Shown here: piece by piece, positions 4,556 through 25,876 of the stretch
How positions within the stretch are numbered: the stretch's first letter is position 1
Layout of the letters: each line of letters starts with the position of its first letter
NCBI GenBank assembly: GCA_025054955.1
Contig: JANWZE010000148.1
Coordinates: forward strand, 1 to 39,567
Length of the DNA stretch: 39,567 nt
Direction: 5' to 3'
Source: Blastocatellia bacterium
GTDB lineage: Bacteria; Acidobacteriota; Blastocatellia; HR10; J050
Program-made: the position numbers and the translations under genes
The notes under the pieces: generated by a model
What the model saw: the letters and a program-made list of their open reading frames with translations, nothing else
The model's database searches: none
Told to the model about the DNA's origin: nothing

Positions 4556-5929
<1,374 letters not shown>

Positions 5930-6803
5930 AGTATTGATCAAGCCAGCCTGAGGCATGGGACAAAAGATTTCAAAAGACTGTTGACTCATTTTGAAGTTGA
6001 TCAATGGGTCGAGCCAGCTTGTCGTATTGGATGGCCAATCACCGAACGTACACGCGCGACGCCTCTTGAAAAAGCGCGTTGTAGCTTGTGGCCTTGAAAC
6101 ACGCGATCTCAAACCGTGTCGGGTGACGCCCGTCAGATGAGCAATCGCCCCTACGCAGCAGCAGGCCATGAAGAATGAAACACGTTCGTTTGCATGCCAC
6201 GGAAATGGTTATTTTCACAGGAATCGCTCCGCTGAAGAATGTGGCACAGGCGTTCCCGCGTGTGCCCCATTTTCATCGTTCGTGGCGTGCGCGGAGCATA
6301 AGGGGGATTCCTCAGAAAACGTCCGAGGTCAGGAACAGAGGAGGTCCAAGCTCCGCGTGCGCCGGAGGCGCAAGCAGCAGGCAGCCAAACGTGCAACGTC
6401 TGGAACAGCCGATCAAACAATCGTGGAGCGTTGGAGACGCGCCGAGATGTGCGCGTTTGTGATCAGTGATTGAACACCATGAACGAGTCGGTGAGGGGAC
6501 GGGTGGCGCCTCTCCAAGGCGCCCTGCGAATTGGGGGATGATGTCCCACCCAGACATTTCACGTCTGGCTACCCGTTGGTGCGCGGCTGCCACCCTCGAA
6601 GCACGAAATTCACTCACCATAACGTGACTAAATGCCGAGTGAAGGTCGTACATTCCCGCTCAGTCAGTTCGGCCTCCTCCATGCTTTTTGGTTCCATCAA
6701 CGTGGGCCTTTTTCCTTGCATTTGGTATGAGTCTGACGGGCGCGCTTGCTGCACGGAGCGCAGGGTTGACTCCGTTGGTGAAAGTTAGTATTTTGTTTTC
6801 GCT
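5930..6803. other. Gene-poor intergenic region of about 870 bases
   Basis: No open reading frame here looks like a real gene: the candidates on both strands are short, low in complexity and lack ribosome-binding sites. A perfect hairpin, GGCGCCT (6505-6511) with AGGCGCC (6517-6523), has no T-run and is not a convincing terminator. Sequence near 6265-6285 resembles a stretch near 30590 (the phrase TTCGTGGCGTGC occurs in both), which hints at decayed dispersed repeats. The last 40 bases hold the promoter of the small HTH gene. Confidence 0.5.
6766..6794 (+). promoter_or_regulatory. Putative sigma-70 promoter of the small HTH gene
   Basis: -35 TTGACT (6766-6771), a 17-base spacer, and -10 TATTTT (6789-6794). 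Transcription would begin near 6801, and the ATG is at 6804 with no ribosome-binding site, so the mRNA would be leaderless or nearly so. Confidence 0.45.
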
Positions 6804-20309: not shown

Positions 20310-21830
20310 TCATGACTTCAGTACGCTCTCGCTGAGGAGATGTTTCTGAATTTTGCCCGTGGCCGTTCGAGGGAATGAATCAACAAAGAAGACTCGGCGT
20401 GGACATTTGAAGTCGGCCAGTCGGCTCTGGCAATAGGCGATCACGTCCGCGGCATCCCATGTTTCACCCTCTTTCAAAATCAGGCAGGCGCCCACTTCCT
20501 CACCCCAGATCGGATCAGGCAGGCCGATGACGGCCGCTTCTTTCACCTTGGGGTGTTGGTAGAGCACCTGTTCGATTTCCTGCGGATAGATATTGACGCC
20601 GCCGCGAATAATCATCTCCTTCTTGCGCCCGACGATGTAGAAATAGCCTTCTTCATCGTAGTAACCGAGATCGCCTGTGTAGAGCCATCCATTGCGAATC
20701 GTTTGCGCTGTTGCTTCGGGATTCTTGTAGTAGCCTTTCATCACGTTGCGCCCACGAATGATGATCTCGCCCACCTGACCGGCTGGCAACGGTTGGCCGT
20801 TGTCGTCCACGATGGCGAGCTCCTGGCCCGGAAATGGCAATCCAATTGAACCGATCTTGCGTTTGCCTTCAACCGGATTGATCGTGCTTGCGCACGTTCC
20901 TTCAGACAGGCCGTACCCTTCGATGATTTTAGCGTGGAATTTCTCCTCAAACCGGGTGAACACCTCCACCGGCATGGGGGCAGCGCCGCAGATACACATC
21001 CGCAGGCTACTCAAATCGTATTGGTCAGCATCAGGCAAATTCAACAAAATTGAATAGACGGTCGGCACGCCGCTGAATGTGGTGGCGCGATAGCGCGCCA
21101 GATTTTCAAAAAACGTTTTGGGCGAAAACCCTTCGGTCAGGATCATGCTGCCGCCGCCTTGCATCGGCATGAGAATGGTGACGACCTGCCCGTTGACGTG
21201 AAACAACGGCAGAATACACATGGCGCGCTCATCAGCATTCATGCCCGATACCATCGCGCCTTGCCAGCTATTGATGTAGTAATTTCCCTGTGTGAGCACC
21301 ACGCCTTTGGGCTTGCCGGTGGTTCCCGAGGTGTAAATGATACCCATCTCATCGTCGGGACTGATCGGCACATCCAGCTCATCGGGGGGCGCAGCCAGCA
21401 ACTCGGTGAACGAGAGCATCCCGGCCGGCGCGTCGTCGCCGACAACGACAATTTGCTTGAGCTGTGGACAGACAGGCCGAATCGCCTCGATCAATGGTAG
21501 GAATTTGCTTTCGGTCACCATCGTGGTTGCATCGGAGTTATTGACGATATACTGCACCTCTTCGGCCTTCAACAACACATTGATCGGGACAAGCACGGCT
21601 CCCAACTTCGGAGTCGCCAAAAACAGGTAGACAAATTCGGGCCGGTTCGTTAGCATGACGCAAACCTTATCGCCTTTGTTGACTCCCAGCTCGAGCAACC
21701 CGCGGGCAACGCGATTGGTCAGCTCATGCAACTGGCCATAAGAGACCTCCAGGTCATGGAAATAGAGGAACGTCTTATCCGGCGTGGTTTGGGCGCGCAG
21801 TCGGAGTAGGTCAGGAATTGTCTCTTTCAT
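20310..21830 (-). CDS. Acyl-CoA synthetase (AMP-forming, fatty-acid-CoA ligase type)
   Basis: A 506-residue member of the ANL superfamily that activates a carboxylic acid to acyl-AMP and then acyl-CoA. The P-loop is IIYTSGTTGKPKGVVLT near residue 164; the aromatic/adenine motif is IIEGYGLSEGTCAS near 288. The hinge region is YTGDLGYYDEEGYFYIVGRK, followed by EMIIRGGVNIYPQEIE. The catalytic lysine is in the C-terminal RTATGKIQKHLL. The length is normal for medium- or long-chain acyl-CoA ligases. The ATG has GAGGTGAG just upstream. It may serve fatty-acid breakdown; no beta-oxidation genes are adjacent. Confidence 0.9.
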   Translation of the reverse strand: MKETIPDLLRLRAQTTPDKTFLYFHDLEVSYGQLHELTNRVARGLLELGVNKGDKVCVMLTNRPEFVYLFLATPKLGAVLVPINVLLKAEEVQYIVNNSDATTMVTESKFLPLIEAIRPVCPQLKQIVVVGDDAPAGMLSFTELLAAPPDELDVPISPDDEMGIIYTSGTTGKPKGVVLTQGNYYINSWQGAMVSGMNADERAMCILPLFHVNGQVVTILMPMQGGGSMILTEGFSPKTFFENLARYRATTFSGVPTVYSILLNLPDADQYDLSSLRMCICGAAPMPVEVFTRFEEKFHAKIIEGYGLSEGTCASTINPVEGKRKIGSIGLPFPGQELAIVDDNGQPLPAGQVGEIIIRGRNVMKGYYKNPEATAQTIRNGWLYTGDLGYYDEEGYFYIVGRKKEMIIRGGVNIYPQEIEQVLYQHPKVKEAAVIGLPDPIWGEEVGACLILKEGETWDAADVIAYCQSRLADFKCPRRVFFVDSFPRTATGKIQKHLLSESVLKS

Positions 21831-22094
21831 CGCTCACCTCTGAACATGGCATCAGACGACCACGGCGCTCCCGTGATCAATGAGGTCACATAGACACCCA
21901 GGCCTATGCGTCTCGTCAGTTGACCAGCAGGCGGTTGTCCAACGTGACCGCGTGGTCGGCTGGTAACAAGCACACGCCACGGTTGATCCTGAACAATCAG
22001 CCAGGAAATCCGCGTCGGCCAGAATTGATCGAATCCTTGTTGACGTGTTCGTGTGCGTTGGCTCGGATGGCGTTGGCTCGGATAGGCCGGCGTG

Positions 22095-22436
22095 TCATGC
22101 AAAACTTTTGACCGCCTCGTCTTCATCTTTGAACTCTTCAAATACCGATAGCAATTTGGTGAGCGTCAGCACGTCGTGAACGCGCTGACTCAGATTGAGC
22201 AGCTTGAGGTGGCCGCCATGCGTGCGCGCGGTGGTGAAGCTGTACACCAGCGCCCCAATGCCGGAGCTATCAATGTAGTCTACCTGCTCCAGATTCAGCA
22301 AAATTTTCGTTCGTCCGGCGGCCAGCAAGCTTTTCACCTTCTCGCGTAAGGTGGCTTCCTCTTCTCCTAGCCGAATTGAACCACTCAAATCCAGAATCGT
22401 CACATCATCAATCGTACGTTCCATCATCGTCAACAT
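22095..22436 (-). CDS. STAS-domain anti-sigma-factor antagonist
   Basis: A 113-residue single STAS domain of the SpoIIAA/RsbV type. The phosphorylatable serine is S57 or S58 in VDYIDSSGIGAL. Unphosphorylated members bind an anti-sigma factor or kinase and free its partner. I start at the ATG ending at 22436, with GGAGG eight bases before it. It lies 96 bases downstream of the HPF-sigma fusion gene on the same strand, so a link between the two is plausible. No anti-sigma kinase (RsbW type) gene is in the window. Confidence 0.88.
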   Translation of the reverse strand: MLTMMERTIDDVTILDLSGSIRLGEEEATLREKVKSLLAAGRTKILLNLEQVDYIDSSGIGALVYSFTTARTHGGHLKLLNLSQRVHDVLTLTKLLSVFEEFKDEDEAVKSFA

Positions 22437-22532
22437 CAGAATATCCTCCTCAATCAACAAGCTGCGCGTCGGTGCCTTTTCCCACGAGCCGGCCAATCAA
22501 GACGGACTCGGTGAGGCGCTGAGTTTGCCCGC

Positions 22533-23552
22533 TTAACTGGCTACTGCGCGTTGAACTGAAGGCGTCGTTGTCCATTCAGCTCGCGCAAGCTGCCGACGCA
22601 GAAAATCTCGGGCTGCTTGGTAGTCGCGTTGCACTTCTTCCAGAGACTGGCCCGTGACCAAACACACCTGTTCGAGCGTGAAATCTTCGATGGTGTGTAA
22701 AACAAAGACATCGCGCCAGCGTTTGGGCAGTGTGGCAATGACCTGCTCGATCTCCTGCTGAAATTGCCGTCGAGCCACAATCTCTTCCGGCGAGGGGACG
22801 TGAGGATCAGGCACGATGTCTTCCCAGTGCAACTTCTCATCGGGTTGATACCAAATGTACATCTCGTCTTCAACGGCTGACCCTTTCTGTTGCGGTGAAA
22901 CGCGGGACAATCGTTGTTCGACAGGTTGTTCTTCCTGCGTTGCTGCTTCTCGCCGTTGCTGTTCCTGCTCAATGCGCTGTTTGAACACCTCATCGGCGAG
23001 TCTGGCCAGCCAATCTTCAACCGCCGACGTTGGCGGATTCGCCTGGTAATCGCCCATCGCGCGCATGACGGTTTCATCTATGATAGCTTCACTCGGCACG
23101 GCCTCGGCATCTAACTCGCCGGTTGCCTGGAAATGCTCCATCGCCCGACGGACATATCCAGTTAAGAAGGGTAGGTGCCGATCAATGAGCTGCTCGATGG
23201 GCAGCGGTTTTGTTTGGTCATCACATTGAGCACGGGCTTGATTAGCTCTCTCTGTCAATGATGGCGGCTGGTATCGCTTCAATAACTGGTCGAGCGCCTT
23301 AAAGCCAGTTCGCAGCAATGCTCTCACCTCACGTCCCTTCTCCGCCACTTCGATTGATGACTCCGGCCATGTTAGCTTCAGCGTCACTTCGTACAATCGC
23401 TTGCGTTTCGGTTTGGCCACACGGCCCTGCAACGATGCGCTATCAGGAGCCAATCGCCTCAATGAACGCTCCAGCTTGCTCACCTGTTGCTCAATGAACC
23501 GCTGAATGGGCAACGATGGCTCATACTGCTCGAAGCTCCACTGATGGTTCAT
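22533..23552 (-). CDS. Fusion of HPF/RaiA-like ribosome-binding domain with sigma-70-like factor
   Basis: A 339-residue protein. Residues 14-93 resemble hibernation-promoting factor: IQRFIEQQVSKLERSLRR, a central Lys/Arg-rich strand (VAKPKRKRLYEVTLKL), then an acidic strand and a helix ending LDQLLKRY. Residues 119-193 look like a weak sigma region 2 (LIDRHLPFLTGYVRRAM, then DWLARLADEVFKQRI). An acidic Gln-rich linker (195-260) leads to a good sigma region 4 (262-322, with TLPKRWRDVFVLHTIEDFTL and a helix-turn-helix). The start is the ATG ending at 23552 with GGAGG eight bases before it; the earlier in-frame TTG would place this site inside the gene. It may couple translation state to transcription. 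Known parts, inferred job. Confidence 0.75.
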   Translation of the reverse strand: MNHQWSFEQYEPSLPIQRFIEQQVSKLERSLRRLAPDSASLQGRVAKPKRKRLYEVTLKLTWPESSIEVAEKGREVRALLRTGFKALDQLLKRYQPPSLTERANQARAQCDDQTKPLPIEQLIDRHLPFLTGYVRRAMEHFQATGELDAEAVPSEAIIDETVMRAMGDYQANPPTSAVEDWLARLADEVFKQRIEQEQQRREAATQEEQPVEQRLSRVSPQQKGSAVEDEMYIWYQPDEKLHWEDIVPDPHVPSPEEIVARRQFQQEIEQVIATLPKRWRDVFVLHTIEDFTLEQVCLVTGQSLEEVQRDYQAARDFLRRQLARAEWTTTPSVQRAVAS

Positions 23553-23621
23553 AACCCCAACCTCCAACCAACTTGTTGATCTTCTCGCGCGTGATCTTAT
23601 TACATCGTCGAGCGCGATAAC

Positions 23622-23650: not shown

Positions 23651-23817
23651 GTGAATTTGCAATTTTCTCGGCTGAGCGCCTGTGAGTTAAACCGCCGGCT
23701 GGCCACACTCTTTTGACCATTAACGGGGAGCAACCGGATGGCCGCTTCCGCGGCAACGCGGCTTGGCCACTGCTGCATCTTCGGGATAAGCGACGAGCAA
23801 GACGGACAACGACGGCG

Positions 23818-23847
23818 CTTACAGATTTCTTCTAAGAGTGCTACAAT
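23818..23847 (+). promoter_or_regulatory. Putative sigma-70 promoter of the M1-like gene
   Basis: -35 CTTACA (23818-23823), an 18-base spacer, and -10 TACAAT (23842-23847). Expected transcription start is near 23854, 16 bases before the ATG, just leaving room for GAGG. Confidence 0.35.
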
Positions 23848-23869
23848 CTCGGCTCTCGTGAGGAATCGA

Positions 23870-25876
23870 ATGAAACAGCCTGAGCATCGCATGCTAGTTT
23901 TGACGCTGATCCTGCTCATCCTTGCTAGCCTCGCCCCGCTTCGCCATCAAGCTCAACAAAAGGGTGACGCTGACGTGGTTGACGTGCTCCATTATCAGAT
24001 TGACGCAGAAATCACCCCCGAAGAATCCCTCCTGACGGGCAAGGCGGTGGTGACGTTGAAGCTGTTGACGAACACTCGATCAGTGGTGCTGGAAATGAAC
24101 GGCTCGTTGGTCATTTCAAAAATCGTCAACGAGCAAAACAAGCCGCTCGACTTTTTGCAGGACCGACTCGACAAGATGGACGTCCGCATTGATCTGGGCG
24201 AAACACTCAGCGCCGGCAAGGACATGAAGTTGACGTTTGAGTATAAAGGTGTGCTGAAGACGCCTGAAGGAGGCCCAGTAGCGGACCGGCGATTGGCGGC
24301 TGTTGGCACAGATGGTTCCTATTTATTTTATGCGGCTCGTTGGTTTCCATTTCACAAATACGCTGCTGATCTGGCTACTTATCAGATCAACTTGACTGTG
24401 CCGGAAGGACTCTCGGTGGCCGGTTATACGCAATCGCCGACGGCGCCCAAACCGGTCAAAAAAGGCAAATTGATGCACACGTTGACCAGCAACGAACCGG
24501 TGATGCCCGGTTCGCTGGCTGTGGCCAATTACATCACTCGCACGGTCTCCCCGGCAGGCGGCTTGACGCTGGAGTTCTTCGCCAAACCAGGCGACGAAAA
24601 CCGCATTGACCGCTTCGCTCAAGCGATCGGTAAAATGCTGGAAGTGTATAGCGCGCGCTTCGGTCCCTACGCGTTTGGCTCGCGCATGCAGGTGGCCGAA
24701 ATTGACGATGAATCACTTGACTACTATGTGGGGCCGGGCACGCTGTTTCTCTCTCAGCGCGTGTTCAGCGAGCAAATTCCTTTTGATCTGGGGCGGCTGG
24801 CGCGTGAAGTCGCCTATCAGTGGTGGGGGCAGGCCGTCGCCCTGAAGACATTTGACGACGCTTGGTTATCGCAAGGACTCGCCCAGTACAGCTCGCTACT
24901 GTTTCGCCAAGAAACGCTCAGCGCGATTGAAGCTGAACAAGCTGTCAGCGAAACGATGGAACGGGCGCTGACGTTCGAATCTGCTGCCTCGATTGCGCGC
25001 GCGCCATCCGAGCTGTATGACTTGGGACCCAACTACATCGGCGTCGTCTACTACAAGGGTGCATTCGTTTTCCACATGATGCGCCACCTGCTCGGCGACG
25101 ACAAATTCTTCACGCTCTTGAAAAAGTATTACCAAACCTACCGCGGCAAAAACGCTTCGATTCGCGACTTTGAATCGCTGGCCACGCAGGTCGCCGGTCG
25201 CCCGATGCGCAGCTTTTTTGGTCAATGGGTTGATTCGACGGGGGTGCCGGAGTTTCGCCTTGAATATGTGATCTTGCGCACGCGCGCTGGCAATTTTAAG
25301 GTGCGTGGGACACTCAGACAAAACTTCGACCTGTTTGATCAGCCGGTTGACTTGCTGCTGCGCGCCGAAAGTGGAAACAAAAGGCAGACCATCGCACTGA
25401 AGGGCACGGAAGCGACGTTCGAGATGACGTCTGAGTCGCCGCCGGTGGAAGTCGTGGTTGATCCAGATAACAAAATCCTACGCATCTCTGAGACTATCCG
25501 CCTGAACGTCATAGTCCGGCGCGGCATTGAGCATTTTCGCAATCGCCAGTACCCCGAAGCCGAGCAAGAATTCCGTGCGGCGATTGAACTGGACCCGCAA
25601 AGCTCATGGGCGCACTATAACCTCGGCCTGCTCTACTTTGAACAGCGGAACTGCCTGAAAGCGCTCGATTCGTTCAACGACGCGATCAACAATAACCGGA
25701 AACCTTCGTGGGTGGTCGTCTGGAGCCATATTTATCGAGGCAACTGTTACGACGCCAATGAAGAACGTGAACGCGCCGTAGCCGAATATCAGAAGGCACT
25801 TGACACCGGTGACAATTATAACGACGCGCAACAAGTCGCTCAGCAATACATGAGCAAACCGTTCAAGTATCAGTAA
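23870..25876 (+). CDS. Catalytically degenerate M1-peptidase-like protein with TPR tail
   Basis: A 668-residue exported protein. A signal peptide (about 1-28) is followed by the beta-rich N-terminal domain of M1 aminopeptidases and then the catalytic fold. At the zinc site the family pattern HExxH-x18-E is replaced position for position by R312-E-V-A-Y316 and Q335 (REVAYQWWG, then WLSQGLAQY), so all three metal ligands are lost while QWWG is kept. YYKGAFVFHMMRHLLG and the FFGQWVDSTGVPEF segment are typical of M1. Two or three TPR-like repeats close the protein (about 547-640). The start is the ATG at 23870, with GAGG six bases upstream; a longer in-frame start lacks support. It is likely a binding or scaffold protein. 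Confidence 0.82.
   Translation: MKQPEHRMLVLTLILLILASLAPLRHQAQQKGDADVVDVLHYQIDAEITPEESLLTGKAVVTLKLLTNTRSVVLEMNGSLVISKIVNEQNKPLDFLQDRLDKMDVRIDLGETLSAGKDMKLTFEYKGVLKTPEGGPVADRRLAAVGTDGSYLFYAARWFPFHKYAADLATYQINLTVPEGLSVAGYTQSPTAPKPVKKGKLMHTLTSNEPVMPGSLAVANYITRTVSPAGGLTLEFFAKPGDENRIDRFAQAIGKMLEVYSARFGPYAFGSRMQVAEIDDESLDYYVGPGTLFLSQRVFSEQIPFDLGRLAREVAYQWWGQAVALKTFDDAWLSQGLAQYSSLLFRQETLSAIEAEQAVSETMERALTFESAASIARAPSELYDLGPNYIGVVYYKGAFVFHMMRHLLGDDKFFTLLKKYYQTYRGKNASIRDFESLATQVAGRPMRSFFGQWVDSTGVPEFRLEYVILRTRAGNFKVRGTLRQNFDLFDQPVDLLLRAESGNKRQTIALKGTEATFEMTSESPPVEVVVDPDNKILRISETIRLNVIVRRGIEHFRNRQYPEAEQEFRAAIELDPQSSWAHYNLGLLYFEQRNCLKALDSFNDAINNNRKPSWVVVWSHIYRGNCYDANEERERAVAEYQKALDTGDNYNDAQQVAQQYMSKPFKYQ

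Follow-up and report, generated by a model that had tools for sequence, protein, structure and literature searches.

Known coordination between the shutdown of translation and the reprogramming of transcription in stress uses separate proteins and shared regulators. A gene in the 39,567-nucleotide stretch of Blastocatellia bacterium DNA analysed here (the window) raises the question of whether a single polypeptide can take part in both. The gene lies on the reverse strand (22533..23552) and encodes 339 amino acids from an ATG at 23552, with a GGAGG at 23561-23565, 8 nt upstream of the start codon. An earlier note had read its product as an HPF/RaiA-type ribosome hibernation domain fused to sigma regions 2 and 4. 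This fusion is real: residues 1-96 fold as HPF and not as something else, the search with sigma profiles does return a match, and a survey of other genomes recovers the same arrangement, in two same-family genomes whose proteins are 46-48% identical to this one and in remoter form throughout the phylum and beyond it.

The HPF/RaiA domain (residues 1-96; 23265..23552, reverse strand) is supported by structural matching of an AlphaFold2 model built on a 14-sequence alignment. The model has HPF topology, most of the domain being predicted at a pLDDT of about 90, and aligns with V. cholerae HPF (4hei) at a VIA-align Z of 15.1 and 1.5 Å over 90 residues. Its top structural matches are HPF/RaiA structures, several of them on hibernating ribosomes. 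The HPF/RaiA pattern that had been noticed in the N-terminal 80 residues is therefore upheld by the fold, while the Pfam match itself is weak: Ribosomal_S30AE scores 18.7 bits (E 0.003) in the window protein, below the cut-off of 23.7. Relatives alignable over their whole length do exceed this threshold: L033 with 45.5 bits (1.2e-11), L034 with 43.5 bits, and L063, L064 and L081 with 31.6-35.0 bits. A Pfam scan of the window protein to E 5 found no S30AE C-terminal dimerisation domain of the kind present in long HPF (lHPF); the C-terminal half is the part that matches sigma factors. The AlphaFold2 pTM values, 0.33 and 0.50, are too low to give the orientation of the two halves. The window genome (G000) also has a separate gene with an ordinary HPF sequence, and all but one of the nearly complete genomes of the class likewise have an S30AE match above the cut-off. 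The fusion is thus an addition to the usual hibernation factor and not its replacement.

The two same-family genomes that carry the full-length fusion at 46-48% identity also encode a second copy, which is more canonical and shows about 31% identity. A profile search (E 1e-15 or better) found relatives in 23 of 396 Acidobacteriota genomes, representing 18 of 210 genera; most are full-length and a few are cut by contig ends. A scan of genome contigs added fusions from Nitrospirota, Tectomicrobia, Myxococcota and Chromatiales, as well as a Nitrospinota record that is cut at the contig end, with the HPF part falling outside it. Because the architecture recurs in the same family, throughout the phylum and in other phyla, neither a chance open reading frame nor an assembly join can be its source. 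A viral origin was also rejected, as a search of viral contigs gave no relative. In the tree, the window clade (support 100/100) stands apart from a clade that unites the second copy with the Nitrospirota and Tectomicrobia sequences (96/91). No description of HPF joined to a sigma module was found in the open-licence papers searched; the protein family is conserved and, it seems, undescribed. The Chromatiales members (L068, L069, L070 and L071) retain the HPF domain and the YQPDE motif described below, and their region 4 looks degenerate.

The TIGR02937 (sigma70-ECF) profile matches residues 119-322 of the window protein with 55.9 bits (cut-off 42.9) and exceeds its cut-off in five of the seven family members scanned. 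A region 4-like helix-turn-helix (residues ~255-325; 22578..22790, reverse strand) matches Pfam Sigma70_r4_2 at 29.8 bits (cut-off 25.7) and aligns with CnrH at Z 11.1, with 67 residues at 1.2 Å. The region 2-like domain (residues ~119-200; 22953..23198, reverse strand) is covered by TIGR02937, but the Pfam profile for region 2 does not match the window protein. That Pfam profile reaches 19.4-19.6 bits in L033 and L034, and at most 19.6 among the family members scanned, compared with 55-74 bits in eight ECF controls. The most conserved element of the whole family lies between the two regions: the motif YQPDE-x-L-x-x-ED, invariant in all 14 alignment rows, whose YQPDE occupies residues 235-239 (22836..22850, reverse strand) of the linker.

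Does this half still work as a sigma factor? We compared the family with ECF controls of the same class, 27 sequences that form a small set picked by similarity. One position of region 2.2 is aspartate in all 34 family members (D159 in the window protein) and glutamine in 26/26 ECF controls. We take this position to correspond to Q406 of sigma-70, presumably a contact with core polymerase. In region 2.4, an asparagine found in 26/26 controls is lost from the family, where R, E or D takes its place (E188 in the window protein). The recognition helix of region 4 lacks the [NST]R signature. In most members it carries either no net charge or a negative one, and the mean is -1.06 in the family against +3.15 in the ECF controls (p 8e-12, a value that is indicative only, since the sequences are related). 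The clear region 4 and weaker region 2 reported in the earlier note are thus both confirmed, and so is the erosion it saw in region 2, which has also affected the recognition helix of region 4. As far as can be judged from residues, these changes favour a sigma mimic, or a strongly altered sigma, over an ordinary promoter-reading sigma factor.

Mimicry of this type would resemble that of PhyR. The profile PF22233 (PhyR_sigma-like), which overlaps PF08281, scores above cut-off for L064, L082 and L087 and for none of the eight ECF controls (21.2 bits or less where it matches at all). The sigma half of the L062 model has as its best structural matches a NepR-bound ECF sigma (5uxx, Z 17.2), SigW-RsiW (14.7) and PhyR-NepR (4qic, 13.7). 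Since anti-sigma-bound ECF sigmas have this compact fold in common with PhyR, structural matching cannot tell a sigma factor from a PhyR-like mimic. The Pfam scans of family members showed no receiver domain.

A candidate partner for such a mimic is encoded next to part of the family. A ZAS-type anti-sigma gene with the HxxxCxxC motif lies directly downstream of the fusion in L061, L062, L063 and L065, which belong to one supported clade, and in L062, where it spans 5664-5972, it overlaps the stop codon of the fusion. Its product matches the anti-sigma profile NF052375 (8.8e-8) and RsrA (7.1e-6), both below the cut-offs, and scores 21.9 bits against zf-HC2, whose cut-off is 22.2. In L064 and L066 the fusion protein itself ends in a tail that resembles the C-terminal half of ZAS (Smith-Waterman scores of 49 and 66, reached by 0 of 2000 shuffles). 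The C-terminal tail of L063 was also considered as ZAS-like and is unconvincing, as 19 of 2000 shuffles reach its score. Among 16 further ZAS homologues in the sister genomes, seven adjoin an ECF gene that itself matches the fusion, and both the fusion and its ZAS partner therefore look derived from ECF-ZAS pairs. Unlike in PhyR systems, no separate cognate sigma gene was found adjoining ZAS.

We tentatively favour, at somewhat below even chances, a protein in which an HPF/RaiA domain is coupled to a PhyR-like sigma mimic module descended from a ZAS-paired ECF sigma, so that the level of idle ribosomes would lead to release or capture of the anti-sigma. The mimic part of this reading is preferred because the changes at core-binding and DNA-contacting positions are fixed. 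The HPF domain would dock in the tRNA/mRNA channel of the small subunit and sense or mark idle ribosomes. The sigma-like half, having presumably lost the usual reading of promoters, would act as PhyR does and bind the anti-sigma, perhaps with weak binding to core polymerase. Binding to the ribosome and to the anti-sigma may compete or cooperate, and the amount of idle ribosomes would then set anti-sigma release or capture, in a direction that we can only infer. The mechanisms put forward in the earlier note, a factor shuttling between ribosome and polymerase or a ribosome that serves as anti-sigma sink, are conceivable as well. Hibernation partners and chaperones from neighbouring genes would act alongside. 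Genes for baeRF10 (Balon-like) proteins sit beside the fusion in L061/L062, L066, L082, L087 and L090, and HSP20, an SDH-type protease, FtsH, PGK-Usp, DnaJ, DnaK and a Clp N-domain protein are encoded near members of the family.

A broader version of this idea, which we hold with less confidence and regard as possible though doubtful, is that ribosome hibernation is itself the input of a sigma/anti-sigma switch, with HPF on the idle ribosome controlling the capture of ZAS by the sigma mimic, or sigma, to which it is fused. If so, one polypeptide would report the state of translation directly to transcription, with no need for ppGpp. There is a real chance that the fusion is a new class of translation-to-transcription switch. 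With both modules in one protein, found in five phyla beside anti-sigma, Balon-like and chaperone genes, the question of direct signalling from idle ribosomes to polymerase would become testable with a single purified protein.

The strongest competing explanation, which we consider rather unlikely, is that the protein is a genuine, divergent ECF sigma. HPF would tether it to ribosomes, the idle ribosome being a sink or a delivery platform, ZAS would be an ordinary anti-sigma, and the protein would transcribe its own stress operon of HSP20, protease, FtsH and baeRF10 genes. The TIGR02937 match above cut-off and the retained helix-turn-helix are what such a sigma should have, ZAS is placed directly downstream as it is for ordinary ECFs, the stress genes around the fusion could be an autoregulated regulon, and the recognition helix of the Acidobacteriota ZAS-linked clade keeps some basic residues. 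Against these points stand the exchange of the core-binding glutamine for aspartate in every family member, the loss of the region 2.4 asparagine and the acidic or neutral recognition helix of most members.

The loss of the conserved glutamine also counts against a second alternative, in which the HPF domain keeps hold of idle ribosomes and core polymerase is bound by the sigma-like half without promoter recognition, so that both machines are stored together and the anti-sigma limits this to stress. Such joint storage would account for the conservation of the two halves together in five phyla and for the Balon-like and chaperone neighbours, and it has a counterpart in E. coli, where the shutdown of polymerase and ribosome is coordinated, for the same purpose, by the separate proteins Rsd and RMF (PMC6904343). 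Polymerase binding by the fusion is only conjectured, however, and we consider this alternative improbable. A protein that acts only on ribosomes, as an ordinary hibernation factor with a vestigial sigma half, is very improbable: the one Chromatiales member scanned (L068) does lack any Pfam or NCBIfam sigma match, but selection in the window clade constrains the sigma domains and linker more strongly than HPF (dN/dS 0.03-0.07 vs 0.31), members of the family have a ZAS partner gene or a fused ZAS tail, and the window genome already has a normal HPF.

The closest precedents for the reading as a ribosome-coupled mimic are PhyR, HibA and ECF sigmas with fused regulatory domains. PhyR, the anti-anti-sigma of Alphaproteobacteria, likewise has a sigma2-sigma4-like module with eroded DNA-contact residues and an anti-sigma partner gene, but it carries a C-terminal receiver domain and pairs with NepR, where the fusion has an HPF domain and a ZAS-type anti-sigma. 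In ECF41 and ECF56 with SnoaL_2, and in Planctomycetes ECFs with N-terminal extensions, an ECF-derived module is also joined to an extra, possibly regulatory domain (PMC8103513); that domain is not HPF, the review names no HPF fusion, and the fusion differs further in its changed core- and DNA-contacting residues. The archaeal HibA is likewise an HPF/RaiA domain fused to a regulatory module, in that case CBS, with another partner domain and order, and the survey of bacterial HPF fusions in the same paper mentions no sigma factors in the text examined (PMC13324472). The HPF/RaiA factors (YfiA, protein Y) share the N-terminal fold and the domain length, and many fusions match S30AE above cut-off, but they have no equivalent of the 220-residue sigma-like module that follows HPF here. 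The neighbourhood has precedents too: Balon genes are reported to have RaiA, Hsp20 and "alternative sigma70 factors" among their neighbours (PMC10901736), and baeRF genes near HPF (PMC6514570). The baeRF10 genes beside the fusion are placed similarly to those of these hibernation operons, in which RaiA and sigma70 are separate neighbours and no single HPF-sigma protein is described (PMC10901736, PMC6514570).

The window's own copy departs from the rest of the family in its HPF half. Between two sister genomes, dN/dS in the window clade is 0.31 for HPF, 0.07 for region 2, 0.03 for the linker and 0.06 for region 4. In the ZAS-linked copy, by contrast, constraint is strongest on the HPF half (0.04) and the linker (0.03). 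The tail of helix alpha-2, which contacts rRNA, has a mean net charge of +1 in the window clade, +3.9 in the other fusions and +5.1 in canonical HPFs. With this faster evolution and less basic tail, the window protein retains the HPF fold but may bind the ribosome weakly or differently. The purely translational role once suggested for it becomes less likely for the window clade, in which conservation is concentrated in the sigma half and linker and HPF is under the least constraint.

The window clade also differs in its neighbours. No ZAS gene lies within 900 bp downstream of the fusion, and compared with G001 and G002 the window genome lacks baeRF10, a second fusion copy and, at E 0.001, any ZAS homologue. 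This joint absence looks as if a module had been lost or never gained. All three window-clade members (L031 and L032 included) have instead a downstream gene on the same strand for a STAS-domain protein of the SpoIIAA anti-anti-sigma type, which in the window (22095..22436, reverse strand) encodes 113 amino acids from an ATG at 22436, preceded by AGGAGG at 22445-22450, and matches Pfam STAS (3.1e-18) and TIGR00377 (1.8e-20). In this clade a STAS gene thus stands where the ZAS-linked clade has its anti-sigma, and the HPF helix is less basic, so that ribosome binding is perhaps weakened or changed.

Several further features of these loci deserve mention. In L031 and L032 an HSP20 gene separates the STAS and AMP-ligase genes; the corresponding part of the window (21830-22436) has no HSP20 gene, nor was a recognisable remnant of one found in the window. 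No conserved upstream motif could be recognised between the window gene and L059, which share only 7-8 base matches there, too few to be informative. In another Acidobacteriota clade (L074, L075, L076, L077, L079, L081 and L083) the gene after the fusion is of the class I/II aminotransferase type, as Pfam confirms for L074, and no anti-sigma gene was seen downstream. The island of the ZAS-linked fusion in L061 also encodes a protein that combines phosphoglycerate kinase with a universal stress protein domain (L061:7723-9936). On the other side of the window gene, and divergent from it, lies a gene for an M1 peptidase with TPR repeats (23738-25876, forward strand), whose synteny with the fusion is kept in L031.
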